Below are positions 5,753 to 18,116 of a stretch of DNA of 34,393 nt, in pieces. Position 1 is the first letter of the stretch. Every line of letters begins with the position of its first letter. The DNA is from a virus. The notes beneath the pieces were generated by a model that ran no database searches, was not told where the DNA came from, and was given only the letters and a program-made list of their open reading frames with translations. Where the stretch lies: the IMG/VR virus record IMGVR_UViG_3300028860_000017, positions 1-34,393 of that record; one strand, written 5' to 3'. The translations under genes were made by a program, and so were the position numbers.

Positions 5753-6481
5753 ATGACCAATCCCATTCAGATCAAGCGTGACACAGCCGCCAACTGGACG
5801 ACCAACAATCCAGTCCTGCTCATCGGCACCTGGGCTCTCGAAACCGATACGAAGCGCTACAAGATCGGTGACGGATCGACCGCATGGACCAGTCTCGCCT
5901 ACACGGATCCAACCGTGGCCCTGGCAGTGATCAACGGCAGCACGTTGGCAACCGGTAACCTCGCCTCGGCGTACAACAACACGATCCAGACGGCGGCAAC
6001 GGCGGCTACCTTGACGATGGTTGCCGGCATGTCGTGCCCGTCTGGACTGCGCATCGAGACTCCTGGTGGAGCCACAGTATCCTGGCCTACCGGTTTCACT
6101 GTCAACGGCGTGGCTTCCGCCGGAACATTGACCGCCCTCGCAGGTCAGTTCTTCATCCTAGAACAGATGCAGGGCACCAACACCTGGCGTATCGTCATCG
6201 GGCCGACAACCGATCTGATCACGATACGCACGGAAAGCACGACCTTGACACTGGCGGCCGCTGACCTTGCAGGTGACAGCGAATGTGCATCTGCAATCGC
6301 TGTAACGGCCAGCCCCCAGGCTTCTGGCTTCTGGCGCATGTTCCGCGGCGCGGGCGTCGTCACCTTTACGGGATCGGGCGTCACTGTGACCGACAACCGT
6401 GTCGTCGGTGCTGCTAATCCTGTGTGCATCATCCTGTACACATCGTCGACCACGGCGGTAATCATCGGTGCCAAGGCCTGA
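5753..6481 (+). CDS. Tail fibre protein with Mtd_N-like N-terminal domain
   Basis: The gene encodes 242 residues, with AAGGA 7 bases before the ATG. Residues 4-50 (PIQIKRDTAANW, WALETDTKRYKIGDG, AWTSLAY) match the N-terminal domain of the major tropism determinant family, found at the attachment end of many phage fibres. The body is beta-rich: GLRIETPGGATVSW and an NTWRIV segment resemble fibre tips that read out a spectrum of small hydrophobic strands. It likely docks to the tail through the N-terminus and presents a receptor-binding C-terminus. There is no reverse transcriptase or variable-repeat/template-repeat pair in the window, so this is not evidently a diversity-generating target. Confidence 0.75.
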   Translation: MTNPIQIKRDTAANWTTNNPVLLIGTWALETDTKRYKIGDGSTAWTSLAYTDPTVALAVINGSTLATGNLASAYNNTIQTAATAATLTMVAGMSCPSGLRIETPGGATVSWPTGFTVNGVASAGTLTALAGQFFILEQMQGTNTWRIVIGPTTDLITIRTESTTLTLAAADLAGDSECASAIAVTASPQASGFWRMFRGAGVVTFTGSGVTVTDNRVVGAANPVCIILYTSSTTAVIIGAKA

Positions 6482-6483
6482 TC

Positions 6484-7224
6484 ATGAGCAGAAAAGCAGC
6501 TATCGTAGCCGCTGTACTAGCGGCAATGGGTGGAGTCGGGGGTGGATCTGGCGCTGGTATCGTCATCCAGAGCCAGCTCTTCAGCAACGCAAGCACGTCC
6601 GCTACTCTGGTGGGTACCTTCCCTCTCGGCATCACAGCCGGGAACTCGATCCTCGTTACCGGATTCATTTCCGCGTCGGTTGCTGGTGCCTCAGTCACAT
6701 TGTCTGCAGCTGATGACAAGGGTAGCACCGGATGGCAGGTGGACGCGGTTGCAGATCCTGGTGGCGGTAACAGCTCCAAGGTCTTCATCGCATCTTGTCT
6801 TGCACCAATCGCGGGTGCGACAATCGTCACCATAACTGTCACAGGAGGCGTTGCCGTCTCCCTTTGTGGCATGCTCGAAGTGCATGGTGTCACCGGTCGT
6901 GGCACCCCCAAGACACACGGGTCAGCAGGCGCGGGCGAGACGGGCCCTGTCTCGATCACCAACGCAGCCGCTAACACGAGTCCGCGTGCTATCACACTGC
7001 ATGCATTCACCAACGCGGCATTCCTGTCGAACCTTGGCATGACGGCGGCGCCGACCACTAACTCGTTCACCACGCTGCAAGTCAACCAGAACTTCGCCAC
7101 CAATACTCCTGGGATCTGCGGTTACTATCTGGATACGACTACGGTGACCGATTCGGTGGTCAACAACTGGACGCAGACGAGTTCCTCGATTGCTCAGGTT
7201 CTGATGACTTTTGAACTGGCGTAA
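6484..7224 (+). CDS. Beta-sandwich virion protein of unknown function
   Basis: The gene encodes 246 residues from the ATG at 6484, 2 bases after the previous stop, with AAGG upstream. An in-frame start 60 bases earlier would run through the preceding gene and gives an implausible N-terminus. Residues 5-25 are a short hydrophobic and Gly-rich segment (AAIVAAVLAAMGG). The rest alternates beta-strands: TFPLGITAGNSILVTGF, DDKGSTGW and an LEVHGV segment. This pattern recalls a carbohydrate-binding-like sandwich domain seen in phage and bacterial surface proteins. No catalytic motif is visible. The position between a fibre gene and a glycoside hydrolase suggests a role in adsorption. Confidence 0.55.
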   Translation: MSRKAAIVAAVLAAMGGVGGGSGAGIVIQSQLFSNASTSATLVGTFPLGITAGNSILVTGFISASVAGASVTLSAADDKGSTGWQVDAVADPGGGNSSKVFIASCLAPIAGATIVTITVTGGVAVSLCGMLEVHGVTGRGTPKTHGSAGAGETGPVSITNAAANTSPRAITLHAFTNAAFLSNLGMTAAPTTNSFTTLQVNQNFATNTPGICGYYLDTTTVTDSVVNNWTQTSSSIAQVLMTFELA

Positions 7225-7227
7225 ACC

Positions 7228-8697
7228 ATGAATACCTCCCTATACGCAACGACGGCGGCTCGATCCTATCGCCCGATCTCAACACCTGGTGCCTACGGTC
7301 CTGTGTCGACTTTCAATGGTGCCATCAAAGTGATCGGCAACCAGCTAGTAGACGGTGCTGGCAACACACTGTTCATGCGCGGCGCCAACTACTCGGGCTA
7401 CGAGTTCGCGTATGCCACCGGTGCTCTAGGTTACACTGACGCGTCTGGTTTCCAGGCTGGTCAGGCCAACGGCCCGAAGCTGTCAGCAATGGCGAGTAAC
7501 TGGGGTATGGGCATCATCCGTATTCCGGTGAATGCAGGTTCTTGGTTCGGTGGTGTCTACTATGACATCAACGGTAATACCGTCAACATGGACCCGAACA
7601 ACAACTACAAGACGCAGGTCATCGCCCAGGTCAATGCCGCAGTGACTGCGGGCTTCTATGTGATCTTTGACTTGCACTGGATCAACATCGGCAAGGTAGC
7701 TCCCGTCGGTGGTCAGGTCACGTTCCCAGACATCGTCAATGGCCCGGCCTTCTGGACCGACGCTGCTAACACATTCAAGAACAACCCAGCCGTGATCTTC
7801 GAGCTCTTTAATGAGCCGATCTTTTACGACTGGCCATCACTGCGGGATGGCTCGATCGTTCCGGCGTTTGTCGCCCAACAGAACGGCCAAGGCACCGGAC
7901 CGGTATACGACGGTGACGTCTTCCTGTACCCGATCACGATCACGAGTGGTACCTTCACCGCCGGTGAGCTGTTCACTTCGACTCCTACAGGGGGTCGTGT
8001 CGTCTACGTTGATACGACGGTGAGTCCGAACATCGCATACCTGGTGACGAGCAATGCTTCAGTCGTCACGATGCCAACACTGCCCACGGGTACGGTGATC
8101 ACCGGATCAACATCACACGCTACAGCAACGACGACCGGCGCATCAACCGTCCACTACGCCGGCTATCAGGTTCTCCTGAACGCAGTGCGGGCAACTGGCG
8201 CCACCAATGTCTGTCTCATCGGCGGGTGTTACTTCTCGGCCGATCTGTCCGGTTGGCTCGGCGCTGCTCCGATCGATCCGGCACCAGCCGGCTTCGTTGG
8301 TACCTGGACCCCGCAGATCGGCGCAGTCTGGCATGCGTATCCGGACTACTCTGGACCCACGTACGGGAACACGGGATACGGAGAACCTAGTTTCGGTGCC
8401 GTCTCGTTCACTTACGCACAAGGCATCATGGCGGGTGGTTATCCGCTCGTCATTACGGAGACGGGTGGTTCGACCAATCTCGGAGGTGGTCCGGCGACTG
8501 CCAACAACGAGCCGTTCTGCTCGAACATGGCAACGTGGTGCACCACTTACAATGTGACCACGACGTTCTGGGCGTGGGACATCTGGGCTGTTCCGGCCAA
8601 CGCCTGTATCACAGACGTCAACGGCACGCCTACAGTTGGTCAGGGTCAGGTGCAGAAGGCATGGTGCAATACCTACACCACGCGTTACGGCACCTGA
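7228..8697 (+). CDS. Glycoside hydrolase family 5 (cellulase-like) enzyme, probable virion depolymerase
   Basis: The gene encodes 489 residues. The GH5 TIM barrel is recognisable: an N-terminal strand with GNTLFMRGANYSG, NWGMGIIRIPV, then FDLHW (D148-W151). The acid/base motif is FNEP (Glu196) and the nucleophile is ITETGG (Glu411), both in the expected context. The family cleaves beta-1,4-linked glucans, mannans and related polysaccharides with retention. No secretion signal is seen, so release on the virion or by lysis is likely. Roughly residues 226-306, between the two catalytic Glu, are a Thr/Ser/Val-rich segment (SGTFTAGELFTSTPTGGR) unlike GH5 and like a phage structural beta-domain. 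It begins 3 bases after the previous stop with no clear Shine-Dalgarno, which suggests coupled translation. Substrate is unknown; host exopolysaccharide or cellulose is plausible. Confidence 0.85.
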   Translation: MNTSLYATTAARSYRPISTPGAYGPVSTFNGAIKVIGNQLVDGAGNTLFMRGANYSGYEFAYATGALGYTDASGFQAGQANGPKLSAMASNWGMGIIRIPVNAGSWFGGVYYDINGNTVNMDPNNNYKTQVIAQVNAAVTAGFYVIFDLHWINIGKVAPVGGQVTFPDIVNGPAFWTDAANTFKNNPAVIFELFNEPIFYDWPSLRDGSIVPAFVAQQNGQGTGPVYDGDVFLYPITITSGTFTAGELFTSTPTGGRVVYVDTTVSPNIAYLVTSNASVVTMPTLPTGTVITGSTSHATATTTGASTVHYAGYQVLLNAVRATGATNVCLIGGCYFSADLSGWLGAAPIDPAPAGFVGTWTPQIGAVWHAYPDYSGPTYGNTGYGEPSFGAVSFTYAQGIMAGGYPLVITETGGSTNLGGGPATANNEPFCSNMATWCTTYNVTTTFWAWDIWAVPANACITDVNGTPTVGQGQVQKAWCNTYTTRYGT

Positions 8698-9584: not shown

Positions 9585-11582
9585 ATGTCCAGCCAAGGTG
9601 TCTACTTCTACTCCAGCATATCCGTTCACTTCAACGGACTGGCTGGCCCCGCTTCAGTACTACAAGTTCCTTGGGCTGAGAATTTTGACGCCTTCAGTTC
9701 GGGTATTCCACTTGGGGTCGTCAGGGGAAACCTGAACTCCGATACCCCGGCTGGCCTCTACGTCTTGACTCCGGCCGCTGACGGGACGGTCAAATGGAGA
9801 TTCGCTCTTGGCCTGGCCGACCTCAGCGCCTCAGTGGCGACCGGAAGCGTGGTTTCCGTCTTCCTCAATGTGACTTCGACCCAAACCTTTGCGTCCGGAG
9901 TCTCTGTCTGGAAGAATGGCAGCAACCAAACTTCGCTGACGGTCGCACCCGATGCGAGCAATTCTGTTTGGGTAACCCTCGCTGCGACGGCCTCTTCATC
10001 CGCAGTTCCCACGTTCCTGTTCCCAGGTAACCAGGCGCCGTTCACGTCAGCTATCTATGGCCTGCCATTGACGGTCGACTACAACTTCGGCACGTCTGCC
10101 ACAGCACCGACACCCGGCGTGTCGGTGGCGATCCAGTCACTGACTGAGCTTGGGACGTACTTCAATCCTGTCGAAGGCAACTCCTACGGTGGTACTGGCA
10201 CGACGACGATCAACAACGAACCGCAACGCTATCGTCCGGCATTCGATGGGAACAATCACAGCATAGGTGCCTCGGGCCTAACGCTGACAGCCACCAATCC
10301 GTCAGGTACATGGAACACCTACGGTCGCGCTCAAATCCTGACGACTGGTGCGGGCATCAACGTCAACGCTATAGGTGGAACGGTCCCAACCACGTTTGCG
10401 GCTCTGTCCCTGGCTGGCACAGAACCCTGGCTCAGCACCATCGAGCTCGGCGATTGCGTCACTTACAACAGTGGCATGATCTTCGTGACAGGCGTTGACC
10501 TTGTTGGACAGACCATTACGTTTGAGGCTGTCTCCAACGGCGGGGCTGTCTCTGCCTACAAGGGCAACTGGGCTGTGACCTTCACCAAGCTCGCCTTCTG
10601 TCCCCTGTCCGCAAACATGGCGCAAGGAGCTACGTCTGCTACATTCCAACGTGCTGTTCCGTCTAGCGTGGTTGTGGGTAGCATGCTCGGAGGTGGTCAG
10701 CGTGCATTCACGTACTATGCGGCTCCGACCTCGTATGCAGCATGCAGGGTCCAGACGATCTCCACAGATCGTAAGACCATCACCTTCGACTCTCCTGCAA
10801 ATTTGTCTGGTACTGGAGTCACACTTCTTGCTGCAAGCGACGGCATCTGGTTCATTCCTGAAACATGGTCTGGGCAGATCTGGTCCAAGCGCGCCTTTGG
10901 TCCTAACCAAGTAGGCTCGAACGTTTGCGCCATCGAGGTGACGTTCAAGACTGGCGTCATCCCGTGGTGGCTCGGCGGTGCCAACTACACGAAGGCTCAG
11001 ATCGACGCGTTCTTTGCCGCGAACCCCACGATCCCAATGGGATTCTGGCCTGCTATTTGGCTGTATCAGTTCAAGCCGAACGGCACTGTAGCCGGTGCGC
11101 GCTTCGACCAGTCCGAGGTTGACATGATGGAGTTGTTCTCAACGCTCTACCGGGGCGCTGGAACATTCACCGCAACTTTGCACGGAGCACCTTACACGGT
11201 GACGCCGTCGCTCAGTAACGCAGGTGGACTCAACTCCAACTATCCAGGAGCTACTTGGGAAACGAGCGCTGCGGGCACGACCAACATGTCAGCCAACGCC
11301 TCGTCCCTTGATCTGGCTTCAAACGCCTATGTCACAGACGGGAATTTCCACACGCTCGGATTGGTGTGGACGAAGGCAAAGGCAGCTATCTACCTGGACA
11401 ACTACTGCATCTACGCTGCAGACTACTCGGTGTCGAGCGATTATCCTATGCAGCTGGGAATCGATCTGGCCATGGGTGCTCTCAACGGCAGTTCTGCAGC
11501 AGCGCTGGCTTTCCCTCAGAACAGTGCCAACTTCTCAGGGTGCTCGCTGACTGTTAGTCGCATCCAAGCCTGGGAAATCTAA
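9585..11582 (+). CDS. Glycoside hydrolase family 16 enzyme with N-terminal virion-type module
   Basis: The gene encodes 665 residues, with GAGGA 6 bases before the ATG. Residues 1-155 form a module shared with the protein at 13060-13635 (YFYSSISVHFNGLAG, DTPAGLYVLTP). The GH16 jelly-roll appears to start near residue 210 (NNEPQRY, Glu212). It is interrupted by about 170 non-GH16 residues (~245-415), resumes at WSGQIWSKRAFGPNQ and reaches GFWPAIWLY. The catalytic motif E-x-D-x-x-E is intact (Glu511, Asp513, Glu516 in SEVDMME). The family cleaves beta-1,3/1,4-glucans, agar, carrageenan and similar glycans. The gene lies between the holin candidates and the spanins, yet the N-terminal module suggests virion attachment. 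It is probably an exopolysaccharide depolymerase; substrate unknown. Confidence 0.85.
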   Translation: MSSQGVYFYSSISVHFNGLAGPASVLQVPWAENFDAFSSGIPLGVVRGNLNSDTPAGLYVLTPAADGTVKWRFALGLADLSASVATGSVVSVFLNVTSTQTFASGVSVWKNGSNQTSLTVAPDASNSVWVTLAATASSSAVPTFLFPGNQAPFTSAIYGLPLTVDYNFGTSATAPTPGVSVAIQSLTELGTYFNPVEGNSYGGTGTTTINNEPQRYRPAFDGNNHSIGASGLTLTATNPSGTWNTYGRAQILTTGAGINVNAIGGTVPTTFAALSLAGTEPWLSTIELGDCVTYNSGMIFVTGVDLVGQTITFEAVSNGGAVSAYKGNWAVTFTKLAFCPLSANMAQGATSATFQRAVPSSVVVGSMLGGGQRAFTYYAAPTSYAACRVQTISTDRKTITFDSPANLSGTGVTLLAASDGIWFIPETWSGQIWSKRAFGPNQVGSNVCAIEVTFKTGVIPWWLGGANYTKAQIDAFFAANPTIPMGFWPAIWLYQFKPNGTVAGARFDQSEVDMMELFSTLYRGAGTFTATLHGAPYTVTPSLSNAGGLNSNYPGATWETSAAGTTNMSANASSLDLASNAYVTDGNFHTLGLVWTKAKAAIYLDNYCIYAADYSVSSDYPMQLGIDLAMGALNGSSAAALAFPQNSANFSGCSLTVSRIQAWEI

Positions 11583-14650: not shown

Positions 14651-15883
14651 AACAATTTTATCCTGCGTCTAGTTGGTTGACGGGACTAATTACCCCGGTC
14701 TTCCACAGAAGAACTAGCCCGGCTGGACGCGTCCCCTACTCTGTGGAGTATCACAAATGGCTGCTCACGCCACTCTGAAGACCGCCTCAGGTCTAAATCC
14801 CAAAATTGCGTCCAGGAACGTCCAGGTCTGGAATTCTCTACTCGACCACCTAGAAGACAATGCACTAGGTATGTTTGCTCTGCGCAGGGTGATCAGCGAA
14901 ATGTACCCGCGTCTAGGTAGCAAGCTACACGATCTTTACGGTAATCTGTACTCCCACTTTCAAGTATTTGCCTTTTTGTTTCCGAGTCCGCTGTGCGAAG
15001 TCTGTGGGGTGGCTACATCCAGGGTTACGTGCTCGAGTCGCTGTACTTACTTCCACAAGACTGGGTATTGGAACCCTAGTTCTAACCCGGAGATTGTCGC
15101 CAAGAAGGAAGCCACAACTGCTAAGAATTGGGGCGTGAAGAATCCGTTCCAATCCAAAGTCCTGACGAAGAAGGCCCAAGACACACGCGAGTCTAGAACT
15201 GGCTATAGACACGCGCGCCAGAATCCGGCAATAGATCTTAGAGCCGAGAAGAAGCGCCTGAAGACAATGACTGATCGCTACGGGACAACAAATGCCATTG
15301 ATGTTCCAGGAGCTAAAGAAAGGCGTGTGTCCTCGTACATCGAGAACTTTGGAGTTGAACACCCAATGAAGAGTGCAGAGATTTCTGCACGTATGATCAA
15401 GACTCGTGAAGAACGCTGCTTAGCTAAGCATGGAGTTCGTCACATCCTACAGACGCCCGCTGGTTTGGAGGCCCACATGAGGGCCTTACGCGCCGTAACC
15501 TCACATGTCTTCAAAGGTCGCAAGTTTGAAGTCCAGAGCTCTTACGAAAAACTGATCTTCGAGAAACTGGCAGCCAAGTACGGGATCATGGGTGTTCACA
15601 CTCAGTTCCACAGAGAATTTCCCAAACACACATTCAAAGAGTGCGGCACAACACCAGATCTCTACGTGCCATCTCTCGACCAGTTCGTTGAGATCAAGAG
15701 TGTCTACACACTGATGTACAAAAAGGAATGGCTGCGGAGCAATCGGCGAAAAGCCTGGAATTGCAACCACAGCCATTGTCAGACAAAATGGGTCGTTGTC
15801 ACTGATCCTAAGAAGGGACTGTTCGTACCGTTACCTCGGGATTGGTTCAAGCTCAGTGATACTGATCTTAGGAAACTCGTGGG
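14609..15883. mobile_element. Putative homing insertion that interrupts and re-supplies the exonuclease 5' end
   Basis: The ~1.3-kb segment holds a plus-strand PD-(D/E)XK nuclease gene against the direction of its minus-strand neighbours. It is flanked by two versions of the exonuclease start: the remnant M-SNDRLFGVDGNF ending at 15884, and the active M-TNDRVFAVDGPF ending at codon 14 (14609). The proteins match at 9 of 13 positions while most shared residues use different codons. The boundary on the exonuclease side is inferred from where similarity to the remnant ends and may extend further into the gene. AT content looks higher across the segment than outside it. No terminal inverted repeats or target duplication of transposon type are seen. 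Confidence 0.6.
14651..14756. promoter_or_regulatory. Divergent intergenic region between exonuclease and nuclease genes
   Basis: This 106-bp gap lies between divergent starts and should hold signals for both. TGGAG (14744-14748) is the ribosome-binding site of the nuclease. It overlaps the arm tctgtgga (14740-14747), which can pair with tccacaga (14702-14709) and might hide it. A palindrome ggacgcgtcc lies at 14725-14734. I could not find a convincing -35/-10 pair for either direction. Confidence 0.35.
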
Positions 15884-15887
15884 CTAG
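14757..15887 (+). CDS. PD-(D/E)XK nuclease with zinc knuckle and repeats, homing-endonuclease-like
   Basis: The gene encodes 376 residues, with TGGAG 8 bases before the ATG. A zinc knuckle CEVC-x8-C-x3-C lies at about residues 80-96. Next come several ~35-residue repeats built on (Y/W/F)G(V/T)xNP or FGVEHP followed by S and K-rich helices (NWGVKNPFQS, RYGTTNAID, NFGVEHPMKS, KHGVRHILQT). This repeat type is seen in freestanding phage endonucleases and probably reads DNA. The C-terminal nuclease core has SYEKLIFEKL, then TPDLYVP (Pro300-Asp301) and VEIKSVY (Glu312, Lys314), the canonical E...PD...ExK arrangement. It is transcribed against both flanking minus-strand genes, and its codon use is more AT-rich. 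It lies exactly at the site where the exonuclease start is broken, as expected for a homing endonuclease. Cleavage activity is inferred. Confidence 0.8.
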   Translation: MAAHATLKTASGLNPKIASRNVQVWNSLLDHLEDNALGMFALRRVISEMYPRLGSKLHDLYGNLYSHFQVFAFLFPSPLCEVCGVATSRVTCSSRCTYFHKTGYWNPSSNPEIVAKKEATTAKNWGVKNPFQSKVLTKKAQDTRESRTGYRHARQNPAIDLRAEKKRLKTMTDRYGTTNAIDVPGAKERRVSSYIENFGVEHPMKSAEISARMIKTREERCLAKHGVRHILQTPAGLEAHMRALRAVTSHVFKGRKFEVQSSYEKLIFEKLAAKYGIMGVHTQFHREFPKHTFKECGTTPDLYVPSLDQFVEIKSVYTLMYKKEWLRSNRRKAWNCNHSHCQTKWVVVTDPKKGLFVPLPRDWFKLSDTDLRKLVG

Positions 15888-15925
15888 AAGTTGCCGTCTA
15901 CGCCGAACAAGCGGTCGTTGCTCAT
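15884..15925 (-). pseudogene. Remnant of the original exonuclease 5' end (13 codons plus stop)
   Basis: The ATG at 15925-15923 overlaps the TGA of the DUF2827 gene (TGATG), the same coupling used elsewhere in this operon. The peptide MSNDRLFGVDGNF ends at a TAG. It aligns without gaps to exonuclease residues 2-14 (MTNDRVFAVDGPF): 9 identities plus S/T, L/V and G/A. The stop TAG falls where the intact gene reads TAT for Tyr15, and its bases overlap the stop codon of the plus-strand nuclease at 15885-15887. The reading frame is cut just after the region of the first metal-binding Asp. Confidence 0.7.
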
Positions 15926-17037
15926 CACACGCCCCAGCCCGGCACCCGTGCCTTCAGGAGTTGAGCGTACATCGGCCGCACCGTGTCTGGGTGCAGCTGG
16001 AGGAGGAAGCGCGCGGCCGCCTCCTGGTAGTTCGGCAGGATCTCGTCGTGCTGCTCGAGGGCTTGGTACAGAAGGTCACCAGCTGCCTTGGCGTCAAACC
16101 CGTCGTAGCGATATCCTGCCTCCACCATCTGGCTGTTGTGAACGAGCGGGTATCCGCCGTACAGGATCTCGTTGTAGCTGTAGTTCAGCTCGTTCCACCA
16201 GTTGTGGGCGACGACGGCGCGGACGTTGGTGCTGGCGAACACGGTGGCCGTTGGCTGGCGTGGCTCGCAGGTTGTGACGTCGCGCACTTCCAAAGCACCC
16301 AGGAACGACCTGAACGCCTCGCTGGTCTCTGCCTTCTCCTTGTGGCCCATGACCTTCAGCTCACCAAACATTGGACGGCCGTTGGCCTGACCCGTGCGGT
16401 ACGCCACTTCAGCCGCCAGGATCGGGATGTGTGGTGTCTTCACGACGGACACCGACGGCTCGAACGTGACGACTGTCGGTGCCACGGCCTGGCCAGGGAC
16501 GTAGCCCCAGCCTTGCGGCAGGAAGTCTGGGCCCCAGATCATTGGGACCTTATCGACTGGACAGTTGTGAACCAGCTGGAACATGCTGTGATTCATCTGG
16601 TATATGTGGGGCAGGCACCAGACTGCGTCATAGTCGTTGTGAGCCACGTCGGCTGTGGCCTCGAAGCCGCCGCTTACGTGCTCCATCGCCATGGCCAGCG
16701 TGTTGCCAACCGCGTGGTGAATCAGCAGACCACCCGTGGCACGGAAAGCACGGGCCTCGATCGGACCGAGTTTGGCGCAGACTTCAACGATCATGCGTAG
16801 GTATCCAGGCCCCTTTTCCGTGTACTCGATCCCAAGGTGCTTGGCCAGAGGATAGTTGTTGACGGCGAAGACCTTGACGCCGGGGATCTTCCCCAAGACT
16901 CGCGCCAGGAACGCCGCATTCTGCACGATGCCACTGCCCCACAGGTTCTGGCTGAAGACCTGGTCGCTTGAGGCCTTTGGTTGGGCAGGCAACGTGATGC
17001 CGATGCGAAGGACTTTCGGATTGGAACGGTCGCTCAT
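15925..17037 (-). CDS. DUF2827-family protein, glycosyltransferase-like (copy 2)
   Basis: The gene encodes 370 residues, with GAGG 8 bases before the ATG, which lies in a 4-base overlap with the upstream paralogue. It resembles DUF2827 proteins as I remember them: GSGIVQNAAFLARVLGKIPGV near the N-terminus, YDAVWCLPHI, VPMIWGPDFLP, FEPSVSVVKTPHIPIL, and VAHNWWNELNYSYNEILYGG followed by YPLVHNS. The two-domain pattern and the conserved HNWW...LYGGYPLVHNS block suggest a GT-B glycosyltransferase-type fold, but no donor or acceptor is known. It could modify phage DNA, virion glycans or host surface sugar. The paralogue at 17034 shares the same blocks. The assignment to the family is firmer than the activity. 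Confidence 0.7.
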   Translation of the reverse strand: MSDRSNPKVLRIGITLPAQPKASSDQVFSQNLWGSGIVQNAAFLARVLGKIPGVKVFAVNNYPLAKHLGIEYTEKGPGYLRMIVEVCAKLGPIEARAFRATGGLLIHHAVGNTLAMAMEHVSGGFEATADVAHNDYDAVWCLPHIYQMNHSMFQLVHNCPVDKVPMIWGPDFLPQGWGYVPGQAVAPTVVTFEPSVSVVKTPHIPILAAEVAYRTGQANGRPMFGELKVMGHKEKAETSEAFRSFLGALEVRDVTTCEPRQPTATVFASTNVRAVVAHNWWNELNYSYNEILYGGYPLVHNSQMVEAGYRYDGFDAKAAGDLLYQALEQHDEILPNYQEAAARFLLQLHPDTVRPMYAQLLKARVPGWGV

Positions 17038-18116
17038 AGGAATGCCTCGTGATGCGCGTAGCTCTGTAGTTGTGGCATGAGCTTCGATTCGAATGCCTGC
17101 TTCGTTGCCACAGGGTCGTGACGGTCCATCGCTTCGCGGATGCGGAGCCCACCTTCGCCAGCAGACCAGCGATCGTAGTGGTATCCGTGCTCGCGCAGAT
17201 ACGGACTGGCATGGACGAGTGGGTACCCACCGTACAGCGCTTCGAAGTACAGGTAGTTGAGGCTGTTCTCCCAGTCGTGGGTCACGAGCATGTCACAACG
17301 CTCCGCCATGAAGACCGGACCTACGATTCGCGGCGCCAGGTGCAGGCGTGGCAGCATCGACGCAGCGAGGACCGGATTGTCGTGCTTTAGTAGCAGCCGG
17401 CGAAGGAACTGGTCGAAGTGCGGGTTGCCGTCGAGGTGTGCAGCGTTGAGTACTGTGATCTCACCGATCTTGGCACTGCCCGTGCACGCCGCCCTGATTG
17501 CCAGGAGCGGGACGTGCGCTGTGCGGGTCACGGTGTTATTGGGCTCCATCACGGCAAGACGCCATGACTCGAGATCTGCCGGGGGCCTCCAGCCGAAGTT
17601 CGGTGGTAGGAACAGGGGCTCCCAGGTCGGTGGCACGATCAGCACCGGACAGCGGTACACGATCTCGCACCATGATTTGTAGGCGTGGCCGTAGTGAGCC
17701 GGAAGCCAGACTGCATCGTAGTTGGCAGCGTCCTCGTACGTCTCTGCCGTGTCTTGGGCTCCCTGACGACACAGAGCTTCCATCGAGCCGATGCCGTTCT
17801 GTCCGCCCTTGTACAGGATGACCTTGGTACCGATCCTCTTGTAGCTTGCCCACTCGATGAGGCTGGGCTTGCGGCTGACCACGATCAGCACGTCGACTTC
17901 AGCATTGGAGACCATGTCGTCTTTGGTGATGCCGAAGGACTCCAGTGTCTGCACCAGCGGAACCGAGTCGGGTCCAGTAATGAGAAAGGCGGTATGGCCA
18001 TTCTTCTTGAACATGCGGTACAGGAACAGGGCTGCCTGTCGTACGCCGTTCGAGAAGAGGCCAAGACCGCCGTCATCGTCGATTCGACACGTGATGCCGA
18101 TTCGTTTCTTGGTCAT
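17034..18116 (-). CDS. DUF2827-family protein, glycosyltransferase-like (copy 1)
   Basis: The gene encodes 360 residues and starts the two-gene DUF2827 pair. Matching blocks: GLFSNGVRQAALFLYRMFKK, YDAVWLPAHYGHA, VPPTWEPLFLPP, MEPNNTVTRTAHVPLLAI, and VTHDWENSLNYLYFEALYGG followed by YPLVHAS. Overall identity to its neighbour is modest but the order of blocks is the same, so this is an old duplication or two separately acquired family members. No membrane segment or signal peptide is visible, so it should act in the cytoplasm. The Shine-Dalgarno is weak (GAAAGA). A 32-base gap separates it from the gene upstream. Confidence 0.7.
   Translation of the reverse strand: MTKKRIGITCRIDDDGGLGLFSNGVRQAALFLYRMFKKNGHTAFLITGPDSVPLVQTLESFGITKDDMVSNAEVDVLIVVSRKPSLIEWASYKRIGTKVILYKGGQNGIGSMEALCRQGAQDTAETYEDAANYDAVWLPAHYGHAYKSWCEIVYRCPVLIVPPTWEPLFLPPNFGWRPPADLESWRLAVMEPNNTVTRTAHVPLLAIRAACTGSAKIGEITVLNAAHLDGNPHFDQFLRRLLLKHDNPVLAASMLPRLHLAPRIVGPVFMAERCDMLVTHDWENSLNYLYFEALYGGYPLVHASPYLREHGYHYDRWSAGEGGLRIREAMDRHDPVATKQAFESKLMPQLQSYAHHEAFL

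Follow-up and report, generated by a model that had tools for sequence, protein, structure and literature searches.

What does a cellulase-family enzyme do beside the tail-fibre genes of a phage, and why does a Ser/Thr-rich segment interrupt its catalytic barrel? The gene in question (7228–8697, plus strand, 489 amino acids) lies in virus record IMGVR_UViG_3300028860_000017, of which the window analysed here comprises the full 34,393 bases (positions 1 to 34,393). The source is a soil-type, contractile-tailed bacteriophage, and the record is a piece of its genome. A preliminary description, made from the sequence, had read the product as a GH5 barrel carrying an inserted phage structural domain.

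A GH5 enzyme among tail and lysis genes

The product of 7228–8697 is a member of the GH5 family by profile, fold, and catalytic residues. PF00150 (Cellulase) matches at E=8.3e-24, with 85 bits against a curated cut-off of 23.5, in two stretches that skip the proposed insert between them. All eight canonical GH5 residues are present (R98, H150, N195, E196, H369, Y371, E411, and W448), including the acid/base E196 and the nucleophile E411 named in the preliminary description. The AlphaFold2 model, built on an alignment of 34 sequences comprising the window protein and its relatives, is a (beta/alpha)8 barrel with a mean pLDDT of 85 and a pTM of 0.88, and its 50 best matches in the PDB are cellulases, glucanases, and mannanases at Z 27.5–31.1. 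The bacterial GH5s Cel5C_n (5wh8), SdGluc5_26A (5a94), and Bacillus Cel5A share the barrel fold (Z ~30–31) and the catalytic residues, with ~280–305 residues aligning at 16–25% identity. The GH5s of the phages phiEaP8, Skulduggery, SopranoGao, pEp_SNUABM_01, and POR1 are also among the top structural matches. The first part of the barrel (7324–7818; Pfam stretch 79–199 and residue check) runs up to N195-E196-P197, and the second (8146–8673; Pfam stretch 8164–8580 and residue check) holds H369, Y371, E411, and W448. The N-terminal tail of ~32 residues (7228–7323) is mostly disordered, with residues 1–25 below a pLDDT of 50; neither a signal peptide nor an accessory domain was apparent there in the model and the table of N-terminal lengths.

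The tail-cluster setting given in the preliminary description is borne out by the neighbouring genes. The plus strand encodes tail-fibre proteins, a holin, a spanin, and an endolysin, and the minus strand encodes the tail tube, baseplate wedge, and baseplate hub of a myovirus. A tail-fibre protein with an Mtd N-terminal domain (5753–6481, plus strand; PF18454, E=1e-10, and PHROG tail families) lies 5′ of the GH5 gene, and the holin, spanin, and endolysin genes lie 3′. The gene immediately upstream (6424–7224, plus strand) encodes a beta-rich tail-cluster protein, and the reading frames nearly touch, the GH5 ATG lying 3 bases past its stop codon. Because the wedge protein has its nearest counterparts in the jumbo phages Motura, BcepSaruman, and BcepSauron (39–45% identity), the window is probably a fragment of a much larger genome. 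No GH5 was found in BcepSaruman or Motura at E 1e-3. Between the lysis and tail genes, 14757–15887 encodes a homing-endonuclease-like protein (PHROG 3339, E=4e-11). Beside the tail genes on the minus strand lies an adjacent pair of DUF2827 genes (15925–17037 and 17034–18116; PF10933, E=1e-58 and 2e-54), whose products are ~30% alike.

Cellulase-family enzymes are uncommon in phage tail clusters, as had been remarked; they are, however, already documented there. Erwinia phage S6, for which bacterial cellulose is the first receptor, encodes gp095 (HQ728266), a GH5 that degrades carboxymethylcellulose (PMC9544554). Like the window enzyme, gp095 is a GH5 in a phage host-recognition region, but it bears two N-terminal choice-of-anchor D domains, and the loop past its acid/base Glu is short, with no inserted barrel. 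Since gp095 and similar GH5s are known from phage tail clusters, the enzyme itself is no novelty; what is new is the barrel inserted beside the acid/base. Our search of the literature, partial in its coverage, found no account of domains inserted into phage TIM-barrel hydrolases.

The inserted beta domain and its history

Residues 226–306 (7903–8145, plus strand) lie in the beta4-alpha4 loop, after the N-E-P motif, and are not ordinary barrel loop. This loop has 113 residues in the window protein. Among the 34 aligned proteins, it has 106–128 residues in the seven rows with the insert, which stand for six distinct proteins plus a near-copy, against 15–56 in the 27 others, none of which has the segment. 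These lengths were taken from the alignment and not from residue counts in hmmalign insert columns, which are forced for some rows (L035, L042, and L045). The Thr/Ser-rich character attributed to the segment is also real: 28 of its 81 residues (35%) are Ser or Thr, compared with 14% in the remainder of the protein and 22% in the richest other stretch of 81 residues. The extra ~80 residues are predicted, mostly with high confidence, to form a beta domain. The model places seven strands in it (228–240, 248–250, 255–262, 268–273, 290–293, 299–302, and 308–310) at a pLDDT mostly of 81–96, with a dip at 271–280, and the approach at residues 220–226 is flexible and of low confidence. When the insert was folded alone from its shallow alignment of seven sequences, the strand order was kept at lower confidence (pLDDT 71, pTM 0.61).

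A scan of viral contigs yielded 40 loci with a GH5 relative, and six distinct phage GH5s share a homologous insert at one position (the window protein, L054, L006, L007, L008 with its near-copy L009, and L010). Chance growth of the loop can be rejected because the insert is homologous across these six proteins. Its invariant core consists of G, F, E, T, G, Y, and GT-ITG-S, and the module is kept in 6/6 members of the clade, in which the relatives are 31–50% identical to the window protein (49% overall for L054). The insert used alone as the query of a viral scan returned six loci, every one a GH5 gene from the same bearers. An insert HMM run over the collected loci likewise matched only GH5 proteins, a biased result, as the loci were mostly gathered through GH5. 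The insert is absent from the bacterial relatives, where the loop has 15–46 residues and is short even in the closest ones (46% identity); a Streptantibioticus homologue also lacks the segment. The insert profile had no match in any of the four related records, tblastn found no close homologue of the enzyme in sequenced phages, and sequence matches of the insert alone in sequenced phages were at chance level only. The insert-bearing contigs carry phage genes for a terminase, portal, tape measure, tail, or head protease, and the phages differ in build.

On the simplest reading of the tree, the insert was gained only once, within a viral GH5 lineage. In a tree built without the insert columns, the six bearers are separated from the rest by a single branch (SH-aLRT 92, under the starred level of 95), and this group is nested in a branch of 15 exclusively viral proteins (support 98), which together point to a single gain. 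The GH5 gene of the closest relative (L054/L161) adjoins a homologue of the window gene at 6424–7224 (L161:4249–4968; blastp 36% over 224 amino acids, E=3e-38), and tail or fibre genes adjoin GH5 in other relatives too. The remaining neighbours mostly differ between phages sharing the insert, so later exchange between phages is likely.

The insert-bearers also differ from other phage GH5s at their termini. They have only 21–40 residues before the barrel and 1–7 after it; in complete phage GH5s without the insert, the extra residues number at least 52 at the N-terminus or at least 115 at the C-terminus. As the six bearers form one clade, this association of the insert with absent terminal domains amounts to a single event. 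The sister proteins L006–L010 (L006:2618–4741, L007:314–2416, L008:9893–11875, and L010:4892–6817) bear a second insert after H-x-Y, in a loop of 127–205 residues vs 7–36 elsewhere. In these proteins both Glu residues are retained, the canonical His is replaced (DLH to LAW/LAF), and so is the final Trp. Because the His and Trp are gone, their activity is doubtful, and they may be altered or binding-only enzymes.

Two further viral GH5s were observed. L012 (9356–12826; also L025) has N-terminal fn3 domains and a very large beta4-alpha4 insertion that contains a GDSL lipase/esterase-like domain (residues 704–870; E=1.1e-5 and 26.4 bits, below the Pfam cut-off). A related phage contig (L172; G010:C1:18271–18756), whose tail tube is 55% identical to that of the window, encodes a distinct GH5, which lacks such an insert and probably has a signal peptide.

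Likely resemblance of the insert to virion proteins

The preliminary description had called the insert a phage structural domain, and this label is likely rather than proven. A Foldseek search of BFVD, a library of predicted viral structures, with the insert alone gave cyanophage structural proteins, T4-like baseplate wedge initiators, neck gp14, gp53-like, and fibre proteins as the top matches (probability 0.9–1.0, E 9e-4 to 0.1). Because the library is viral by construction, these matches alone do not demonstrate a viral origin. In the PDB, T-protein and EF-Tu-type barrels lead with Z up to 7.6, and baseplate chains of phages and diffocin (8v3w, 9b45, and 7kh1) reach Z 5.7–6.9 with 84 of 87 residues aligned; all values are below 8, a range in which a match may reflect no more than a common arrangement. 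The insert appears to resemble the small beta-barrel of phage baseplate, neck, and cyanophage virion domains, and it has in common with cyanophage virion proteins the pattern F..GE plus TG.(T/S)SGA, which occurs in virion proteins of S-ShM2 more often than in reversed controls. Comparison of the insert with units picked by this motif gave an hhalign probability of 40%, against 0.1% for reversed sequences, in a partly circular design that is no proof.

The sequence profiles do not extend this likeness. No Pfam or PHROG family matched the insert, so its assignment to a known family of either collection was rejected. The insert HMM scored cyanophage and jumbo-phage proteins at the noise level of reversed controls, so that no significant sequence or profile match links the insert to virion proteins. 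The structural part of the earlier claim therefore has virion proteins as best BFVD matches and a shared motif on its side, and noise-level HMM scores, Z values below 8, and a library viral by construction keep it at likely.

Proposed role of the insert on a probable tail enzyme

Here we infer the virion association of the enzyme, its substrate, and the role of its insert. The most likely reading, at about an even chance, is an exopolysaccharide depolymerase carried on the tail, with the insert extending its substrate face; S6 gp095 offers a precedent for such an enzyme. The GH5 would then be a tail-associated beta-glycanase with a retaining mechanism, E196 serving as acid/base and E411 as nucleophile. 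Its substrate would be a polysaccharide with beta linkages, most probably the exopolysaccharide covering the host, whose cleavage would let the tail reach the cell surface. The catalytic face of a TIM barrel includes the loop that follows strand 4, and this loop sits directly behind the acid/base. A small beta-barrel of the baseplate, neck, or fibre kind, inserted once into this loop in a phage GH5 lineage, could lengthen the rim of the cleft, hold the glycan chain, and replace the terminal accessory domains borne by related phage GH5s.

The substrate-side role of the insert, taken by itself, stands near the midpoint between likely and unlikely. It is favoured because the second insert of L006–L010 lies on the same face and because L012 carries its esterase-like domain in the same loop. 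The lack of extra terminal regions in the insert-bearers would fit an insert that has assumed an accessory role, whether in glycan binding or in anchoring. Against it stands the fold of the insert, which resembles virion structural domains and fits an anchor equally well.

Such an anchor would attach the enzyme to the fibre or to the baseplate with the catalytic barrel facing outward, a possible but rather unlikely arrangement. The BFVD matches to wedge initiators, neck gp14, fibre, and structural proteins, together with the alignment to the three baseplate chains, agree with it; the window protein has no other accessory domain, and the insert is found in phages only. However, the beta4-alpha4 loop on the active-site face is an awkward place for an anchor, and the equivalent loop in L012 holds an esterase-like domain. 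No shared docking partner is evident because most neighbours differ between insert-bearing phages, and the disordered N-terminal 32 residues could do the anchoring instead. If the insert is an anchor, the enzyme would be mounted on the tail in an unusual way.

The usual picture of a phage depolymerase places a virion anchor first and the catalytic domain next. In the window enzyme, the accessory module lies within the catalytic barrel, beside the acid/base, and is common to phages of different build. It is conceivable, at a little under an even chance, that phage GH5s form a lineage of their own in which whole modules dock at catalytic-face loops, a virion domain and a polysaccharide-cutting site being joined via the active-site rim and not end to end. 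The modules docked there would include virion-type barrels, the second beta module, and the GDSL esterase-like domain. If the insert acts on the glycan, as in the substrate-side reading, it would show a way in which phages adapt a common cellulase-family barrel to the exopolysaccharide of the host.

Soil viral GH5s have also been reported as carbon-cycling genes, and endomannanase activity was proven for one of them, Bog_ctg_46288 (Emerson et al. 2018, PMC6786970). It resembles the window enzyme as a GH5 from a soil virus; it is interpreted there as a carbon-cycling enzyme, in passages that describe no insert. The window GH5 might likewise be a free or lysis-stage enzyme, an auxiliary metabolic gene product that frees sugar from plant or microbial polymers, with the insert merely stabilising the fold. 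The gene directly precedes those for holin, spanin, and endolysin, as this would have it. Yet no signal peptide is apparent ahead of the barrel, where the 32 residues are disordered, the gene sits directly behind tail-fibre genes with reading frames nearly touching, and tail or fibre genes adjoin GH5 in the relatives as well, which leaves a free enzyme improbable. Where a viral GH5 is annotated simply as a carbon-cycling auxiliary gene, a role in infection may be overlooked.

Phage tail proteins readily swap beta modules, and the model has low-confidence patches at 220–230 and 271–280, but a mobile module of little function in a tolerant surface loop is very improbable for a segment kept with an invariant core in all six clade members despite 31–50% identity to the window protein.

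A candidate second glycanase, whose presence agrees with the depolymerase reading, is encoded in the same tail and lysis cluster at 9585–11582 (plus strand), with a GH16-like C-terminal region. Its matches are weak (PF00722; NCBIfam EglC at 4.8e-5, far below the cut-off), and a sequence search for a solved relative found none. The motif EVDMME at residue 511 arises in 0.1% of shuffles. In the fibre region of Motura, a gene is annotated as a xyloglucan hydrolase.
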